Of a stretch of DNA of 33,333 bases, positions 12,997 to 19,161 are shown piece after piece. Both the position numbers and the translations under genes were made by a program. This stretch comes from Sphingomonas bacterium (lineage in GTDB: Bacteria; Pseudomonadota; Alphaproteobacteria; Sphingomonadales; Sphingomonadaceae). Positions within the stretch are counted from its first letter, which is position 1, and the number at the start of each line of letters is the position of its first letter. The notes under the pieces were generated by a model. The model was not told where the DNA came from and searched no databases. It saw nothing but the letters and a program-made list of their open reading frames with translations. The DNA is taken from the NCBI RefSeq assembly GCF_028292925.1, contig NZ_JAQGLK010000130.1:1-33333 (forward strand), in the 5' to 3' direction.

Positions 12997-14429
12997 TCCC
13001 GCGCGACCGAGACGTCGTCGAACGGCAGCACGCGCAACGTCTCGCCCGCGCCGACGATCTGGCCCTGCTCATGCCCCTTGCCCGCGATCAGCACGACATC
13101 CTCCGGCCCGGCCATCCCGATCGCCGCAGCGATGGCTTCGCGGCGATCGCCGATCTCGGTCGCGCCGGGGGCGCCGGCGAGCACATCGCGGCGGATCGCG
13201 GCGGGATCCTCGCTGCGCGGATTGTCGTCGGTGACGATCACCACGTCGCCCAGTTCGGTCGCGATGCGGCCCATCTCCGGCCGCTTGCCGGTGTCGCGGT
13301 CGCCGCCCGCCCCGAACAGCACGATCAGTCGCTTGCCCGTATGCGGCCGCAGCGCATCGATCGCCGCGCGCAGGCCATCGGGGGTGTGCGCGTAATCGAC
13401 ATAGACGGGGGCGCCAGCGCGCGTGATCGCCGCCCGCTCCAGCCGCCCGCGCACCGGCTGGACCCGCGCAAGCCGGTCGAGCGTCGCGGCCAGGTCGCCG
13501 CCCGTGGCGATCACCAGCCCGGCGGCGGTCAGCGCATTGGCGGCCTGATACGCGCCGATCAGCGGCAGCTTCACGGTGAAGGTGCGGCCACCCTCCGCCT
13601 CGATCAAAAGCGTCTGGCCGAGCTGGGTGGGGGTGCGCCCCGCCAGCCGCAGCGCCTCACCCCTTTTGCCGACGGTCAGCGTGCGCAGCCCTCGCTCGCG
13701 CGCCAGCTCGGCGACACGGCCGGAGGCGACGTCGTCGGCCCAGATCACCGCGGCGCCGTCTTCGTCTATCACCTCGGTGAACAGCCGCAGTTTCGCCTCG
13801 AGATAGGCGTCCATCGTGCCGTGATAATCGAGGTGGTCGCGGCTGAGGTTGGTGAACGCACCCGCGCGCACCGGCAGCCCTTCGGTGCGGAACTGCGACA
13901 ATCCGTGGCTCGACGCCTCGAACGCGGCATGCGTCACGCCTTCGCGGCGCAGGCCGTGCATGTTCGACAGGAAAGTGACGATGTCGGGCGTCGTCAGCCC
14001 GGTCGATACCTGCTCGTCCGCGGTGGTGACGCCGAGCGTGCCGATCGACGCTGCCGGATGCCCCTCGCTGCGCCACAGCTGGCGCGTCAGCTCGACCGTG
14101 GAGGTCTTGCCGTTGGTGCCGGTAACCGCGACCGTCGTTTCGGGGAACGGCGCGAAGAACCGCGCCGCCAGCCGGGCGAACGTCCGCCGCGGCTGGCTGT
14201 CGGCGATGTGGAGCGCGCCGTCCACGCCCGCCTCCGGCCGGGCGACGATCGCGATCGCGCCGGAGGAGATGGCGGCGGGGATGAAATCCTCGCCGTCGAA
14301 ACGGGCCCCCTGGAAGGCGCCGAATACGGTGCCGGGCGCGATCTTGCGATGATCGATCGCAAAGCCGGTTACCCGGGCGTCGGCGCCTTCCGGAACCGCA
14401 TCGCTGCCGAGGACATCACTCAACCGCAT
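12984..14429 (-). CDS. murE: UDP-MurNAc-L-Ala-D-Glu--meso-2,6-diaminopimelate ligase
   Basis: MurE adds the third stem residue. The 481-residue protein has the substrate-binding start TGFAIDHRKIAPGTVFGAFQG, the ATP loop GTNGKTS (104-110), FTNLSRDHLDYHGTMDAYLEAK with the carbamylated lysine region, and the sequence DNPR (402-405, DNPRSEDP), which is the known signature for meso-diaminopimelate rather than L-lysine specificity. So the cell wall is predicted to be the usual Gram-negative mDAP type. The ATG at 14429 overlaps the end of ftsI by 14 nt, with a G-run ribosome site about 11 nt upstream. Confidence 0.96.
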   Translation of the reverse strand: MRLSDVLGSDAVPEGADARVTGFAIDHRKIAPGTVFGAFQGARFDGEDFIPAAISSGAIAIVARPEAGVDGALHIADSQPRRTFARLAARFFAPFPETTVAVTGTNGKTSTVELTRQLWRSEGHPAASIGTLGVTTADEQVSTGLTTPDIVTFLSNMHGLRREGVTHAAFEASSHGLSQFRTEGLPVRAGAFTNLSRDHLDYHGTMDAYLEAKLRLFTEVIDEDGAAVIWADDVASGRVAELARERGLRTLTVGKRGEALRLAGRTPTQLGQTLLIEAEGGRTFTVKLPLIGAYQAANALTAAGLVIATGGDLAATLDRLARVQPVRGRLERAAITRAGAPVYVDYAHTPDGLRAAIDALRPHTGKRLIVLFGAGGDRDTGKRPEMGRIATELGDVVIVTDDNPRSEDPAAIRRDVLAGAPGATEIGDRREAIAAAIGMAGPEDVVLIAGKGHEQGQIVGAGETLRVLPFDDVSVARECAG

Positions 14430-16128
14430 TCGGATCGGCCCCCTTCGGTTCCCAGATCAGCGGCAGCAGCTCGCTCTCGTCCACGTCGCGCCGCTCGTCC
14501 GGCATGACGCCCAGCAGCGGCCCGATCCGCGCCACCAGCCGCGAAATCACCGGGCCTGTCGTCCATGCCGCGGTGGCGAAGCCGAACGTGTCGGCGGTGC
14601 CCTTCGGCTCATCCAGCATCGCGATGACGACATAGCGCGGATTGTCCATCGGGAACACGCCGGCGAACGTCGAAACGAGCGAATGCTTGGCATACCCACC
14701 GTCGCGCGGCTTTTCCGCAGTGCCCGTCTTGCCGCCCAGCCGGAAGCCCGGCGCGTCCGCCTTGCGGCCGGTGCCCTTGATGACCACCAGCCGCATCAGC
14801 TGGCGCATCCGCGCACTCGTCGATTCGGAGATGACGCGGCGGCCGGCCGGCAGCTTGCCAGGTTCGCGCTTCATCAAGGTCGCCGGGCGGAACACGCCGC
14901 CATTGACCAGCGCGGCATAGGCCGAGGCGAGATGCAGCGGGGTGACCGCGATGCCGTGGCCATACGCCACCGTCATCGTCGTCGTCCGCGCCCAGAAGGT
15001 CGGCCAGAGCGGGCGGCCCTTGGCGCCCAGCTCGATCTGGCTGGCGGTATCGAACCCGAGCTTCTTGAAGAACGCCTGAGTGCGCACCGGCCCGAGTTCG
15101 TCGGCGATGCGGGCGGTGCCGATGTTCGACGAATGGACGAGGATCTCGGGCAGGTTGACGTACCGCTTCAGCGGGTGATCGTCCTTGATCGTGAACCGGC
15201 CGACCCGCAGCGGCGCACGCGCATCGTAGCGCTTGGTCATCGACGTGACGACGCCGCTCTCGATCGCGTTGGCGGCGGTGATCATCTTGAACGTCGAGCC
15301 GAGCTCGTACACGTTCAGCGTCGCCTTGTTGGTCAGGTCGGCGATCGTGCCCTTGCCCGCGGCGTTCGGATTGAAGCTGGGCAGCGAGGCGAGCGCCAGC
15401 ACCTCGCCCGAATCCGCGTCGAGGACGAGGCCTGTCGCGCCGATCGCGCTATGCTTCACCATTGCGGTGTTCAGCTCGGTCTCCAGCGCCGCCTGGACGC
15501 GGGCGTCGATCGACAGCGCCACCGGCGATCCGCGGCCGGAGGGATCGTTCAGCCGCGCATCCAGCGTCCGCTCCATGCCGGAGACGGCCGATCCGTCCTC
15601 CTTGATCCAGCCGAGGACGTGGGCAGCCAGCGTCTGCTGCGGATAGAGCCGCTCCGGCTCACGCTGGAACTCGATACCCGGCTCGCCGATGGCGTTCACC
15701 GCCTTGACGAGTTCGGGCATCGCCCGCTGCTTGAGATAGGCGAACTTCCTGCCGGAGGTGAGGATCGCCAGATACTGCGCCTCGCTCTTTTCCGGCATCA
15801 GCGCCGCCAGCTTCGCGGCCACCTCGCGCGGGTTGCCGACCAGCTTGTTCGGGTGGATCGCGATCGACCACGCATCGAACGTTCGCGCCAGCGGCACGCC
15901 GTTGCGATCGACGATGTCGGCGCGTGCCGGGATCAGCCCGGATACGGCGCTGCTGCGAACGAGCCGCTCCTCGAACAGCGACAGCCAGGCGAGCCGCCCG
16001 GCGATGACGATCGTCACGCCCATGAACAGCAGCATCACCACCATCAGGCGGAAATGTGCGGTCGCGATCGTCTGCTGCCGCTGCCCCGCGAGCCGGACGC
16101 GCGCGGGCGTGGCGATCACCGCGCTCAC
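14416..16128 (-). CDS. ftsI: Septal peptidoglycan transpeptidase FtsI (PBP3)
   Basis: FtsI is the monofunctional class B penicillin-binding protein that cross-links septal peptidoglycan with FtsW. The 570-residue protein has a short cytoplasmic tail, one membrane anchor (about 28-49), a pedestal domain starting near ARADIVDRNGVPLA, and a transpeptidase domain with the three active-site motifs: STFK (278-281, catalytic serine), SSN (333-335) and KTGT (467-470). The start is GTG at 16128, overlapping the ftsL stop as GTGA. The C-terminal end overlaps the murE start by 14 nt. All catalytic motifs are intact, so it should be beta-lactam sensitive. Confidence 0.96.
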   Translation of the reverse strand: MSAVIATPARVRLAGQRQQTIATAHFRLMVVMLLFMGVTIVIAGRLAWLSLFEERLVRSSAVSGLIPARADIVDRNGVPLARTFDAWSIAIHPNKLVGNPREVAAKLAALMPEKSEAQYLAILTSGRKFAYLKQRAMPELVKAVNAIGEPGIEFQREPERLYPQQTLAAHVLGWIKEDGSAVSGMERTLDARLNDPSGRGSPVALSIDARVQAALETELNTAMVKHSAIGATGLVLDADSGEVLALASLPSFNPNAAGKGTIADLTNKATLNVYELGSTFKMITAANAIESGVVTSMTKRYDARAPLRVGRFTIKDDHPLKRYVNLPEILVHSSNIGTARIADELGPVRTQAFFKKLGFDTASQIELGAKGRPLWPTFWARTTTMTVAYGHGIAVTPLHLASAYAALVNGGVFRPATLMKREPGKLPAGRRVISESTSARMRQLMRLVVIKGTGRKADAPGFRLGGKTGTAEKPRDGGYAKHSLVSTFAGVFPMDNPRYVVIAMLDEPKGTADTFGFATAAWTTGPVISRLVARIGPLLGVMPDERRDVDESELLPLIWEPKGADPNAVE

Positions 16129-16811
16129 CGGTTGCGCTTGCCGCCGGTGCGCTCGTTGCGGGCGAGCTTTCCGAGGTCGCCAAGCAGCTTCTCGTCGAGC
16201 AGCGCGACCTTCTGGGGAGCGGTGCCCTTGTGCGTGGCGGGCTTCACGAACACCGCCGAGCGCACCCGCGGCGTATCGTCGGCATTCCGCTCCGGTGCGC
16301 GGTCCCGCTTGCTATCGGCCAGGCGCTCGCGCTCGGGACGGGGCTTTGCCTCCTTCGCCTTGGCCGGCCTCGCCCGCTCCACCTTCGGATGGGCTTCCGC
16401 GACACGGGTGACGGCAACGGGCGCTTCGTAGCTGGCGCGGGTGACGTGGGGCAGCGCCGCCGGTGCTTCATCGATCGCCACCACCTGCACGGCAGCCGGC
16501 GCTTCCATCGCCGGCTGGGCAGGCTGCACGAGGCTGGCGAGCTGAACCTCGTCGGCGACGAACTGCCCGGCCTTGGGCGCGGACAGCGACAGCACCTCGA
16601 CGTTCCAGCGTTCGATCTGCTTCATGCCGGCGCGCGTGCCGATCTCGGTCTCCAGCGAGCGGATCTGGCGCTCGCCGATGACGATCGCGGTCTCCACCCT
16701 CACCAGGGTCGCCCGCTCGGCGGCGACCCGCTGCGAAACGAGGTAGCAGCCCAAGGCGGCGACGGCGACGCCGCCGACCCAGTAGACCGACCGAAAACGC
16801 GTGGCGATCAT
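16125..16811 (-). CDS. ftsL: FtsL-like bitopic division protein with a long basic C-terminal extension
   Basis: Position between rsmH and ftsI, plus a short N-terminus, one membrane span (about 8-28, VYWVGGVAVAALGCYLVSQRV) and a following heptad-like helix (about 29-75, ERATLVRVETAIVIGERQIRSLETEI), identify FtsL, which activates FtsW/FtsI with FtsB and FtsQ. The protein is 228 residues, about twice the usual length. The extra part (about 80-228) is low complexity: first Ala/Pro/Val-rich, then strongly charged (RARPAKAKEAKPRPERER), ending in a basic helix-like tail. The start ATG at 16811 overlaps the rsmH stop by one base. Sequence conservation of FtsL is low, so the name rests on position and topology. 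Confidence 0.8.
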   Translation of the reverse strand: MIATRFRSVYWVGGVAVAALGCYLVSQRVAAERATLVRVETAIVIGERQIRSLETEIGTRAGMKQIERWNVEVLSLSAPKAGQFVADEVQLASLVQPAQPAMEAPAAVQVVAIDEAPAALPHVTRASYEAPVAVTRVAEAHPKVERARPAKAKEAKPRPERERLADSKRDRAPERNADDTPRVRSAVFVKPATHKGTAPQKVALLDEKLLGDLGKLARNERTGGKRNR

Positions 16812-17773
16812 CAGAGGGAGCCTTTCTGTACGCTGGGCCAGGGGGAAGCAGAGGTGCGCCGCGCGATACGAAGCGTGGCGGAACGGGAACGGGGGTTGCG
16901 GTCGATCTCCGCCTCGCCGGGGCGAACCGGCTTGGCGACCGCATCGAAGGTGGGCGGCAGGGCACCGGATACGTCGGGCCGATGCCGCGATCCGGTCGGC
17001 TCGCTGCCGCTGCGCTGCCGCAGGAACCGCTTCACCATCCGGTCTTCCAGGCTGTGAAAGGTGACGACCGCCAGCCGCCCGCCGGGGCGCAGCACACGCT
17101 CGGCAGCGGCGAGGCCCTCCTCCAGCTCCTCCATCTCGCGGTTGAGATGGATGCGGATCGCCTGAAACGTGCGGGTCGCGGGATCCTTCTTGTCGTGCGG
17201 CTTGTACCCGAGCGCGCGGCGCACCACCGCCGCCAGTTCCCCGGTACGGGCGATCGGGCGTGCGGCGACGATCGCGCGCGCCACCCGCCGCGCCCGCGGC
17301 TCCTCGCCATAGAGATGGAGCACGTCGGCGATCTCCGCCTCGTCCCCGTCGTTGACGAACTCGGCCGCGCTCTGCCCGGCCTGCTCCATCCGCATGTCCA
17401 GCGGTCCGTCCGCCTGAAACGAAAAGCCCCGCTCCGCCCGGTCGAGCTGCATCGACGACACGCCGATATCCAGCGTCACGCCGTCCACCGCAGCGATCGC
17501 GCGATCGGCCAGCGCCGCGGCCATGCGCGAGAAACGTTCCTCGATCAGCACCAGCCGCCCGCCGGAGGCCCGCTCCAGTTCGCGCGACTCGGCGATGGCG
17601 TCGGGATCGCGATCGAAGGCGAGGACGCACCCCGCGCCGGCGAGCATCATCGCGCGGCTATAGCCGCCCGCCCCCAGCGTTCCGTCGACATGCGTCTCGC
17701 CCGGGGCGATCGCCAGCGCGGCGATCACCTCGTGGAGGAGGACAGGTGCGTGGCGGGGGTCGGCGGCGCTCAC
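16811..17773 (-). CDS. rsmH: 16S rRNA (cytosine(1402)-N4)-methyltransferase RsmH (MraW)
   Basis: RsmH uses S-adenosylmethionine to methylate C1402 of 16S rRNA near the P site. The 320-residue protein begins with [13 protein letters not shown], followed by the SAM-binding [14 protein letters not shown]-like loop, [44 protein letters not shown] and the terminal motif [16 protein letters not shown], all typical of the family. The start is GTG at 17773, overlapping the mraZ stop as GTGA. ftsL starts within its stop codon. It is the usual second gene of the dcw cluster. Confidence 0.97.
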
Positions 17774-18321
17774 AGCGCGAACCCCTTCTCTTCGCAGAAT
17801 TCGCGGCATTCGTCGGCGAGGTCGGGGAATTCCTCCTGGTGGCACTCGACGAAGGTCGCCGGGTTCCACAGCCCGAACGTGTCGCTCAGCCCGAAGAAGT
17901 AGACGAAGTCGGTGATCCCGGCCTTGGCACGGATCCGCGGCGGCAGAACGATTCGGCCGTTGACGTCCCACGGCATGTCCTCGGCCGAACCGAAGAAGGT
18001 CAGGTCCTTTCGGATCGCCGCTTCGCGCTGGAGGCCGGCCTTGTCCGCGTGCCTCTCATCGATGGTGCGGCGGTGGTCGCGGGCATAGGCGTTGTCGAAC
18101 GCCATCAGGCAGGGCTGCGTGGGATCCTTGATCAGGATCACCACCTTGCCGGTGCGGCGGCGCTCGTCCGTGTCGTCGGCGTTCGGATCGAAGCCGTCCT
18201 GCATCACGAGGCGGCGGTGGCGGGTCTGGATCGCACCCCGGTAGTCGGCAGGCACGGACACGCGACCCTTCGCGTCGACCGCGTTCAGCGCCTTCCCCCG
18301 GAATTGGTCGTGAACAGCCAA
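17770..18321 (-). CDS. mraZ: Transcriptional regulator MraZ
   Basis: MraZ is a DNA-binding protein of the AbrB-like swapped-hairpin type; in E. coli it represses its own dcw operon by binding repeated TGGGN boxes. This 183-residue protein has the two expected DxxxR motifs, DAKGR (near 17-21, followed by VSVPADYR) and DVNGR (followed by IVLPPRIR), each heading one MraZ half. It is longer than the common 140-165 residues because of an acidic/basic insert ([15 protein letters not shown]). The start is TTG at 18321; no ATG or GTG fits, and AAGGGG lies about 8 nt upstream. TGGG arrays upstream (18436-18490 and 18598-18623) are likely its targets. Confidence 0.94.
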
Positions 18322-18435
18322 CGCGATGCCCCTTTTCGAGGCGTGTTGCCCGCCCGTTGCGCCGACGCATTCTCACGCCGTCGCCACCAAACAGGTCACA
18401 TCCTCGATGCCGGAGGCGTAACATGTAGTTCCCCG

Positions 18436-18490
18436 TAGGACTAGATGGGATTTGATGGGCAAAGCTGGGGTTGCGTGTGCACAGCTGGGT
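18436..18490 (+). promoter_or_regulatory. Proximal MraZ-box array (six 5-bp boxes in exact 10-bp register)
   Basis: Boxes begin at 18436 (TAGGA), 18446 (TGGGA), 18456 (TGGGC), 18466 (TGGGG), 18476 (TGTGC) and 18486 (TGGGT). Four match TGGGN exactly and two are degenerate, all spaced exactly 10 bp. E. coli MraZ is known to bind TGGGN direct repeats separated by 5 nt, the same period. The array is 115-170 bp upstream of the mraZ start, read on the strand opposite to mraZ. Confidence 0.75.
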
Positions 18491-18553: not shown

Positions 18554-18562
18554 TGTGGATAA
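18554..18562 (-). promoter_or_regulatory. Consensus DnaA box upstream of mraZ
   Basis: The minus strand reads TTATCCACA, a perfect high-affinity DnaA box. It lies between the two TGGG arrays. A single exact 9-mer could occur by chance, and no cluster of further boxes was seen nearby, so this is not called an origin. Confidence 0.45.
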
Positions 18563-18597: not shown

Positions 18598-18623
18598 TGG
18601 GGGCCTGATGGGATGAGATGGGC
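18598..18623 (+). promoter_or_regulatory. Distal TGGG-box array, candidate second MraZ operator
   Basis: Three GATGGG units have TGGG at 18598, 18609 and 18619, spaced 11 and 10 bp. They match the proximal array in sequence and strand and begin about 110 bp beyond its end. Two separated arrays would allow looping or a second promoter; that role is inference. Confidence 0.5.
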
Positions 18624-18743
18624 GAGCGCGGGGTGCCGGCATGGGCGCGCGGCGCCCCGGCGGTGCCGCCGGACGGCGCGCGGAGAGAATCACGCAGGGC
18701 GTTCGGGCACCCGCCGAATCGCCGGCGGAGAACTAGAGGTTGT

Positions 18744-19064
18744 TCAGCGCCCCGCGGGGGCGGCGGCGGCCCGGCCGGAAGTGGCATCGGCGGGCGCAAG
18801 GGCGGGCCCGGATCCGGGGGCGACGGTAAATGGCGCTGCCGGCGGCGAATCGGCCTTGCCCGGCAGATTGCCCGGAGTCACGCCAAGCTCCGCCAGCGGC
18901 TCGCGCGGTTCTGCGGTGGCGTTGGCATCAAGGCTGGGCGCAACCGGACCCGGCGCGCCCGGAACCGCCGCCTCCGGGCGCGCAAGCCCGAAGAACGCCG
19001 CGGCCAGGAACACCAGCAGGAAGACGCAGGCCAGCCCGGTCAGGCCGACGCGAACCCGTTGCAT
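18744..19064 (-). CDS. Small membrane-anchored Pro/Ala-rich protein of unknown function
   Basis: I do not recognise a family. The 106-residue product begins MQRVRVGLTG and has one hydrophobic span (about 7-27, GLTGLACVFLLVFLAAAFFGL). The rest (28-106) is rich in Pro, Ala and Gly with few charges, and is probably a disordered periplasmic tail given the positive N-terminal residues Arg3 and Arg5. The start at 19064 is supported by a strong GGAGGGAG ribosome site; the open frame starts at 19124 without one. It lies 97 nt downstream of cysK on the same strand and may be co-transcribed with it, and 422 nt upstream of mraZ. Confidence 0.65.
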   Translation of the reverse strand: MQRVRVGLTGLACVFLLVFLAAAFFGLARPEAAVPGAPGPVAPSLDANATAEPREPLAELGVTPGNLPGKADSPPAAPFTVAPGSGPALAPADATSGRAAAAPAGR

Positions 19065-19161
19065 CCACTCCCTCCCCGCCCTGCAGTTCGTAGGCCAGAC
19101 TGTTGCACTACCAAGACTAACCAAGCCCTACCGGCTTGTCGAACCGGAACGGTCGGCAGGA

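Follow-up and report, generated by a model that had tools for sequence, protein, structure and literature searches.

The mraZ gene of this Sphingomonas genome is preceded by six TGGG-like boxes at a step of exactly 10 bp, which very probably serve the cell-division repressor MraZ as a docking site before its own gene cluster. The boxes run antisense to mraZ, and across the class arrays of this orientation overlap a TTGAC-N17-TGnTAT promoter motif. MraZ is among the most conserved bacterial regulators, and its reading of boxes by an oligomer and its repression have been worked out in few species. The MraZ operator is already known as a switch, and its antisense, promoter-overlapping layout in Alphaproteobacteria is, as far as we searched, little described. 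Below, ‘window’ refers to the whole 33,333-nt stretch of DNA that was analysed.

The mraZ gene of the window is genuine and heads a dcw cluster, in which it is followed by rsmH and then by an ftsI-like gene (Table 1). Both DxxGR motifs of its product are common to E. coli MraZ. Comparison at the genus level was made with one other genome (n = 1, the sister genome), whose MraZ is 68% identical to that of the window. Compared with its E. coli counterpart, the window MraZ has an insertion in the first domain, which is present in the sister genome too, and it is because of insertions in MraZ of this genus that Pfam catches only the second domain. Searching solved structures by sequence gave M. pneumoniae MraZ (1n0e) at no better than E = 0.92, and we therefore draw no conclusions from structure.

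Table 1 Features around mraZ, in positions of the window
Feature	Position	Strand	Remarks
ftsI-like penicillin-binding protein gene, dcw cluster	14416..16128	-	downstream of mraZ
rsmH (mraW), second gene of dcw cluster	16811..17773	-	start approximate; PF01795 1e-89
mraZ, TTG start, 183 aa, presumed binding protein	17770..18321	-	PF02381 7.5e-13; both DxxGR motifs
Predicted extended -10, TGTTACGCC	18415..18423	-	TGnTA of relatives; sister TGTTAGTCG
Predicted -35, TAGTCC, weak	18438..18443	-	overlaps box 1; TTG-N17-TGnTA layout of relatives; sister TTGGTC
Proximal array of putative MraZ boxes, six units	18436..18490	+	antisense to mraZ, 10-bp step
DnaA box TTATCCACA, perfect	18554..18562	-	between the two arrays; conserved in sister
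Distal array, GGGG/TGGG/TGGG/CGGG	18599..18632	+	starts 18599, 18609, 18619, 18629; same orientation as proximal array

Two neighbouring observations concern this locus. Between mraZ and cysteine synthase A lies a small minus-strand ORF of 126 aa (18744-19124) that matches no Pfam or NCBIfam family; a membrane-anchor-like N-terminal part is followed by a Pro/Ala-rich region, and the sister genome has a similar sequence. In four nearly complete genomes of the same family (G002, G025, G035, G043), the window MraZ found no match, as MraZ is either lost there or too divergent.

On the plus strand the proximal units are TAGGA, TGGGA, TGGGC, TGGGG, TGTGC, and TGGGT, starting at 18436, 18446, 18456, 18466, 18476, and 18486, so that TGGG is exact in four units and degenerate in two (TAGG and TGTG). 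They are located 115-168 bp upstream of mraZ. A sequence-only reading of the window had listed these six boxes with their positions, their exact 10-bp register and four TGGGN units, all of which were reproduced from the letters. It had also put every box on the same face of the DNA helix, which holds only roughly, because a strict 10-bp step drifts by ~80° over 50 bp relative to 10.5 bp per turn.

Arrays of TGGG-like boxes at a 10-bp step were scored on both strands, with 100 dinucleotide-shuffled versions of the 33 kb window as a control. The proximal array is the best of the window with a score of 16, which none of the 100 shuffles reached anywhere on either strand, their maximum being 12. 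In the 2.8 Mb genome, the pattern TGGG-N6-TGGG-N6-TGGG has a single match, the proximal array itself.

The same register is kept in the sister genome, where the six proximal units are TGGG, TGGT, TGGG, GGGG, TGTG, and CGGG, and an extra TGGG lies 11 bp closer to mraZ. Between the two genomes, 16 of the 18 GGG positions are identical versus 20 of the 36 spacer positions (one-sided Fisher p = 0.013). The degenerate-looking TGTG unit is TGTG in both.

We then sampled mraZ upstream regions from 113 relatives of the same order, from about 91 genomes across the class, and from 56 genomes on the E. coli side. In the class sample, arrays were significant against shuffles in 78 of 91 regions, and 77 of these 78 are antisense to mraZ. 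In the order sample the significant arrays were 68/109 (63 antisense, 4 sense, 1 tied), and several of the sense cases are secondary clusters in loci that also bear an antisense array. The other 41 order relatives show no array at the strict threshold, probably in part because GC-rich family members have CGGG, GGGG, and AGGG units, which receive lower scores and arise more often by chance. Among the E. coli-side regions, 28/56 have a significant array and 27 of the 28 are sense, as are the boxes of E. coli itself; the lone antisense case is a low-complexity tract. Litoreibacter (Rhodobacterales) has an antisense array of six units, and an RsmH tree places it inside the class sample (support 0.986) with E. 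coli outside, so the class is Alphaproteobacteria. Array length in order and class ranges from 3 to 8 units and is mostly 4-7. Six units, which had been taken as exceptional, are thus usual, and the window array is typical of its class.

When the spacing of antisense-strand TGGG words was counted pairwise with no period assumed, it peaked at 10, 20, and 30. In the class, pairs at 10 bp number 181 against 1.8 expected, those at 20 bp 113 against 2.6, and those at 30 bp 63 against 1.8. Loss of the period in relatives had been named beforehand as one outcome that would count against the operator; in both order and class, the 10-bp period is present. At longer range, distances of 41, 51, and 61 are more frequent than those of 40, 50, and 60. 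The frequent 1-bp slips in relatives (distances 31, 41, and 51) indicate that the real pitch is slightly above 10 bp, the strict 10 of the window being one case.

Where the arrays lie relative to the promoter differs between the two sides. With generic weights, sigma-70 promoters upstream of the arrays cluster only on the E. coli side, where boxes typically start 7-9 nt after the -10 of a TTGACA-N16..18-TATAGT promoter. Their positions are scattered in the alphaproteobacterial sample, and this scatter led us to test for a promoter embedded in the array. TTGAC occurs in or beside 80 of 140 alphaproteobacterial antisense arrays versus 12.4 expected, and in 67 of 73 cases its phase relative to the boxes is the same to within 1 bp. 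At 17 nt past TTGAC comes the TAT of TGnTAT, an extended -10, and then the CCC of the next box. The consensus on the mraZ-sense strand is CCCA-TTGACG-CCCA-N6-CCCA-TGnTAT-CCCA, in which boxes and core promoter (TTGAC-N17-TGnTATCCC) interleave. Alphaproteobacterial arrays are antisense and extend upstream from the -10 across the -35, whereas those of the E. coli side begin just beyond the -10 and extend downstream. Taken over the class, boxes do not start a few nucleotides downstream of the -10; in the window the promoter is a prediction.

In the family of the window, 23 of 57 members have TGnTA at the proximal array edge (3.9 expected), and of 21 arrays having TGnTA, 15 also carry TTG with 17-18 nt separating it from the hexamer. 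The candidate of the window itself is TAGTCC (read from 18443 to 18438), N17, and TACGCC (18420 to 18415) with TGT before it; that of the sister genome is TTGGTC-N17-TAGTCG with TGT preceding. The -35 of the window is weak, agreeing with TTGACG at 3/6 positions, its -10 is non-consensus, and a consensus scan found no strict sigma-70 promoter in the window. With so weak a version, the start site at ~18408 is a prediction, and the promoter could lie elsewhere than 18415-18443.

In all likelihood, the array is an MraZ operator on which an oligomer covering the promoter would occlude RNA polymerase and autorepress mraZ and the dcw cluster. Subunits of one MraZ oligomer would read successive TGGG boxes about one helical turn apart. 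As the array runs upstream from the predicted -10/-35, bound MraZ would cover the mraZ promoter and keep polymerase off, and expression of mraZ-rsmH-fts would fall as MraZ accumulates. The MraZ-type operator proposed in the sequence-only reading is backed by the position at mraZ and the dcw cluster, the box core, the 10-bp period, genome uniqueness, and conservation in order and class. Counting against the operator and its mechanism are the weak predicted promoter, the two degenerate boxes, and the 41 order relatives in which no array passed the threshold. In common with MraZ operators in general, the array has at least three direct repeats at ~10 bp in the promoter region of an mraZ gene heading the dcw cluster.

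The E. coli mra operator (TGGGAAATTG TGGGGCAAAG TGGGAATAAG GGGG; TGGGN with 5-nt spacers at Pmra) is described here from the E. coli sequence and from papers that cite the original MraZ study. It shares with the window array the core, the 10-bp step, and the place before mraZ of the dcw cluster. The comparison with E. coli in the sequence-only reading was incomplete in missing the antisense strand and the overlap with the predicted core promoter. E. coli has three boxes on the mraZ-sense strand starting 8 nt after the -10, whereas the window has six units, plus four distal ones, on the antisense strand, overlapping or preceding the predicted -35/-10.

Repression by MraZ via repeats before mraZ is described for E. 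coli and mycoplasmas, and MraZ binding for Burkholderia (PMC7761207, PMC8475190). In Burkholderia cenocepacia, a PmraBc fragment with repeats of 10-nt units (7 + 3) was bound by MraZ in gel-shift (PMC7761207); the repeat unit of 10 nt is like that of the window, but the repeats, four in number, are downstream of the -10 and overlap the start site. The Mollicute site consists of AAAGTG[T/G] direct repeats in the mraZ promoter (Fisunov 2016, as cited in PMC8475190) and occurs once in the M. genitalium genome. It is thus also a direct-repeat operator in an mraZ promoter, with a different box core. In the alphaproteobacterial dcw cluster of Rhodobacter sphaeroides, mraZ has a mapped start and a 268-nt leader with a terminator and the sRNA UpsM, and MraZ repeats are not discussed (PMC5089854). 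In the window, Rfam and terminator scans of the mraZ leader found no structured RNA or terminator comparable to these.

A distal array of four units lies farther upstream (Table 1). It had been absent from the sequence-only reading and is the second-best array of the window, with a score of 12 that equals the best of the 100 shuffles. The sister genome has TGGG, CGGG, and TGGT here with the 10-bp step retained, and the inter-array gaps of the two genomes differ by a deletion of 11 bp, close to one turn of the helix. We infer that the distal array may serve as an auxiliary operator with a helper role. Secondary clusters are also found in relatives, antisense in loci L056, L085, and L089 and sense in L108 and L109. 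They are significant at p ≤ 0.033 in just 14 of 109 order relatives (~4 expected), with varying orientation and distance, so a general role is unproven.

The DnaA box between the two arrays also has counterparts in relatives. The mraZ upstream regions of the order contain 29 DnaA boxes versus 1.3 expected, 25 of the 29 mraZ-sense, and in most loci that have one it is mraZ-sense and upstream of the array. The family form, (C/G)TTATCCACAGGCT, is mraZ-sense and usually precedes the box array by 70-125 bp. A DnaA box upstream of mraZ could possibly link replication initiation to dcw expression.

The two arrays and the DnaA box raise the alternative that MraZ bridges the six-unit and the four-unit arrays, ~110 bp apart, with the DnaA box in the loop. 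We regard this as rather unlikely, if worth considering: the rank of the distal array in the window, its step kept in the sister genome, the gap change by about one turn, and the recurrence of secondary clusters are all consistent with looping, but the small number of relatives with a significant cluster and its variable orientation and distance argue against it.

Other explanations do without MraZ at these boxes. They might serve a different regulator, e.g., one that co-opted the region, with the MraZ site elsewhere. Orientation and position are indeed unlike those of the E. coli operator, and a literature search turned up no alphaproteobacterial MraZ with binding data. A TGGG core with a 10-bp step as in E. 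coli, located before mraZ, unique in the genome, and present upstream of mraZ class-wide, makes such a regulator improbable. Still less probable is a G-quadruplex built from the G-runs, in leader or promoter, with the 10-bp spacing incidental. There are four GGG runs in 43 bases, and in S. aureus a G-quadruplex has been reported downstream of the mraZ promoter (PMC11796246). However, a G-quadruplex needs no fixed 10-bp period, and the window boxes precede the predicted start site. Several relatives (L107, L110) hold the register with TGGT/TGGA boxes without GGG, so that four GGG runs are not conserved. The single-strand fold is ordinary (z = -0.68, in a model without G-quadruplex scoring), and a DNA hairpin is likewise not unusual. 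As for chance, the intergenic region is GC-rich and TGGG words are many, but 0/100 shuffles, genome uniqueness, and conservation in the sister genome and the class refute it, leaving it a negligible prospect.

For MraZ as the binding protein, the two layouts share a further feature. In both, the array starts near the -10 or start site and runs outward, suggesting that MraZ binding would be indifferent to orientation and anchored to polymerase; the outward layout could reflect either polymerase contact or only descent. We tentatively consider, as a possibility short of even, that flipping and moving of the MraZ operator is an alphaproteobacterial class trait with binding of this kind, and that in this genus the second array ~110 bp upstream and the DnaA box may allow bridging and a link to replication timing. 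We found no description of the class-wide mirror layout in the literature searched, with key subscription papers and regulon databases outside the search. This natural, class-wide flip makes it testable whether MraZ depends on operator orientation, and whether it acts by covering the promoter or at the start site. Moreover, box searches limited to the coding strand or to the region downstream of the promoter would miss alphaproteobacterial operators.

Two minor observations were made in the relatives. The gene for RNase P RNA adjoins mraZ in L020 (689-1079), L022 (2242-2639), and L149 (2017-2375). Some family members have G-rich arrays on the sense strand, for which RNase P RNA was suspected as the source; it is present in these three loci and absent from the others tested. 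CtrA-type TTAA-N7-TTAA sites were not seen in the window; in the order, there are 19 observed versus 1.2 expected, and in other families of the order (L072, L073, L078, L079, L103) such a site lies beside the MraZ array at its upstream edge.
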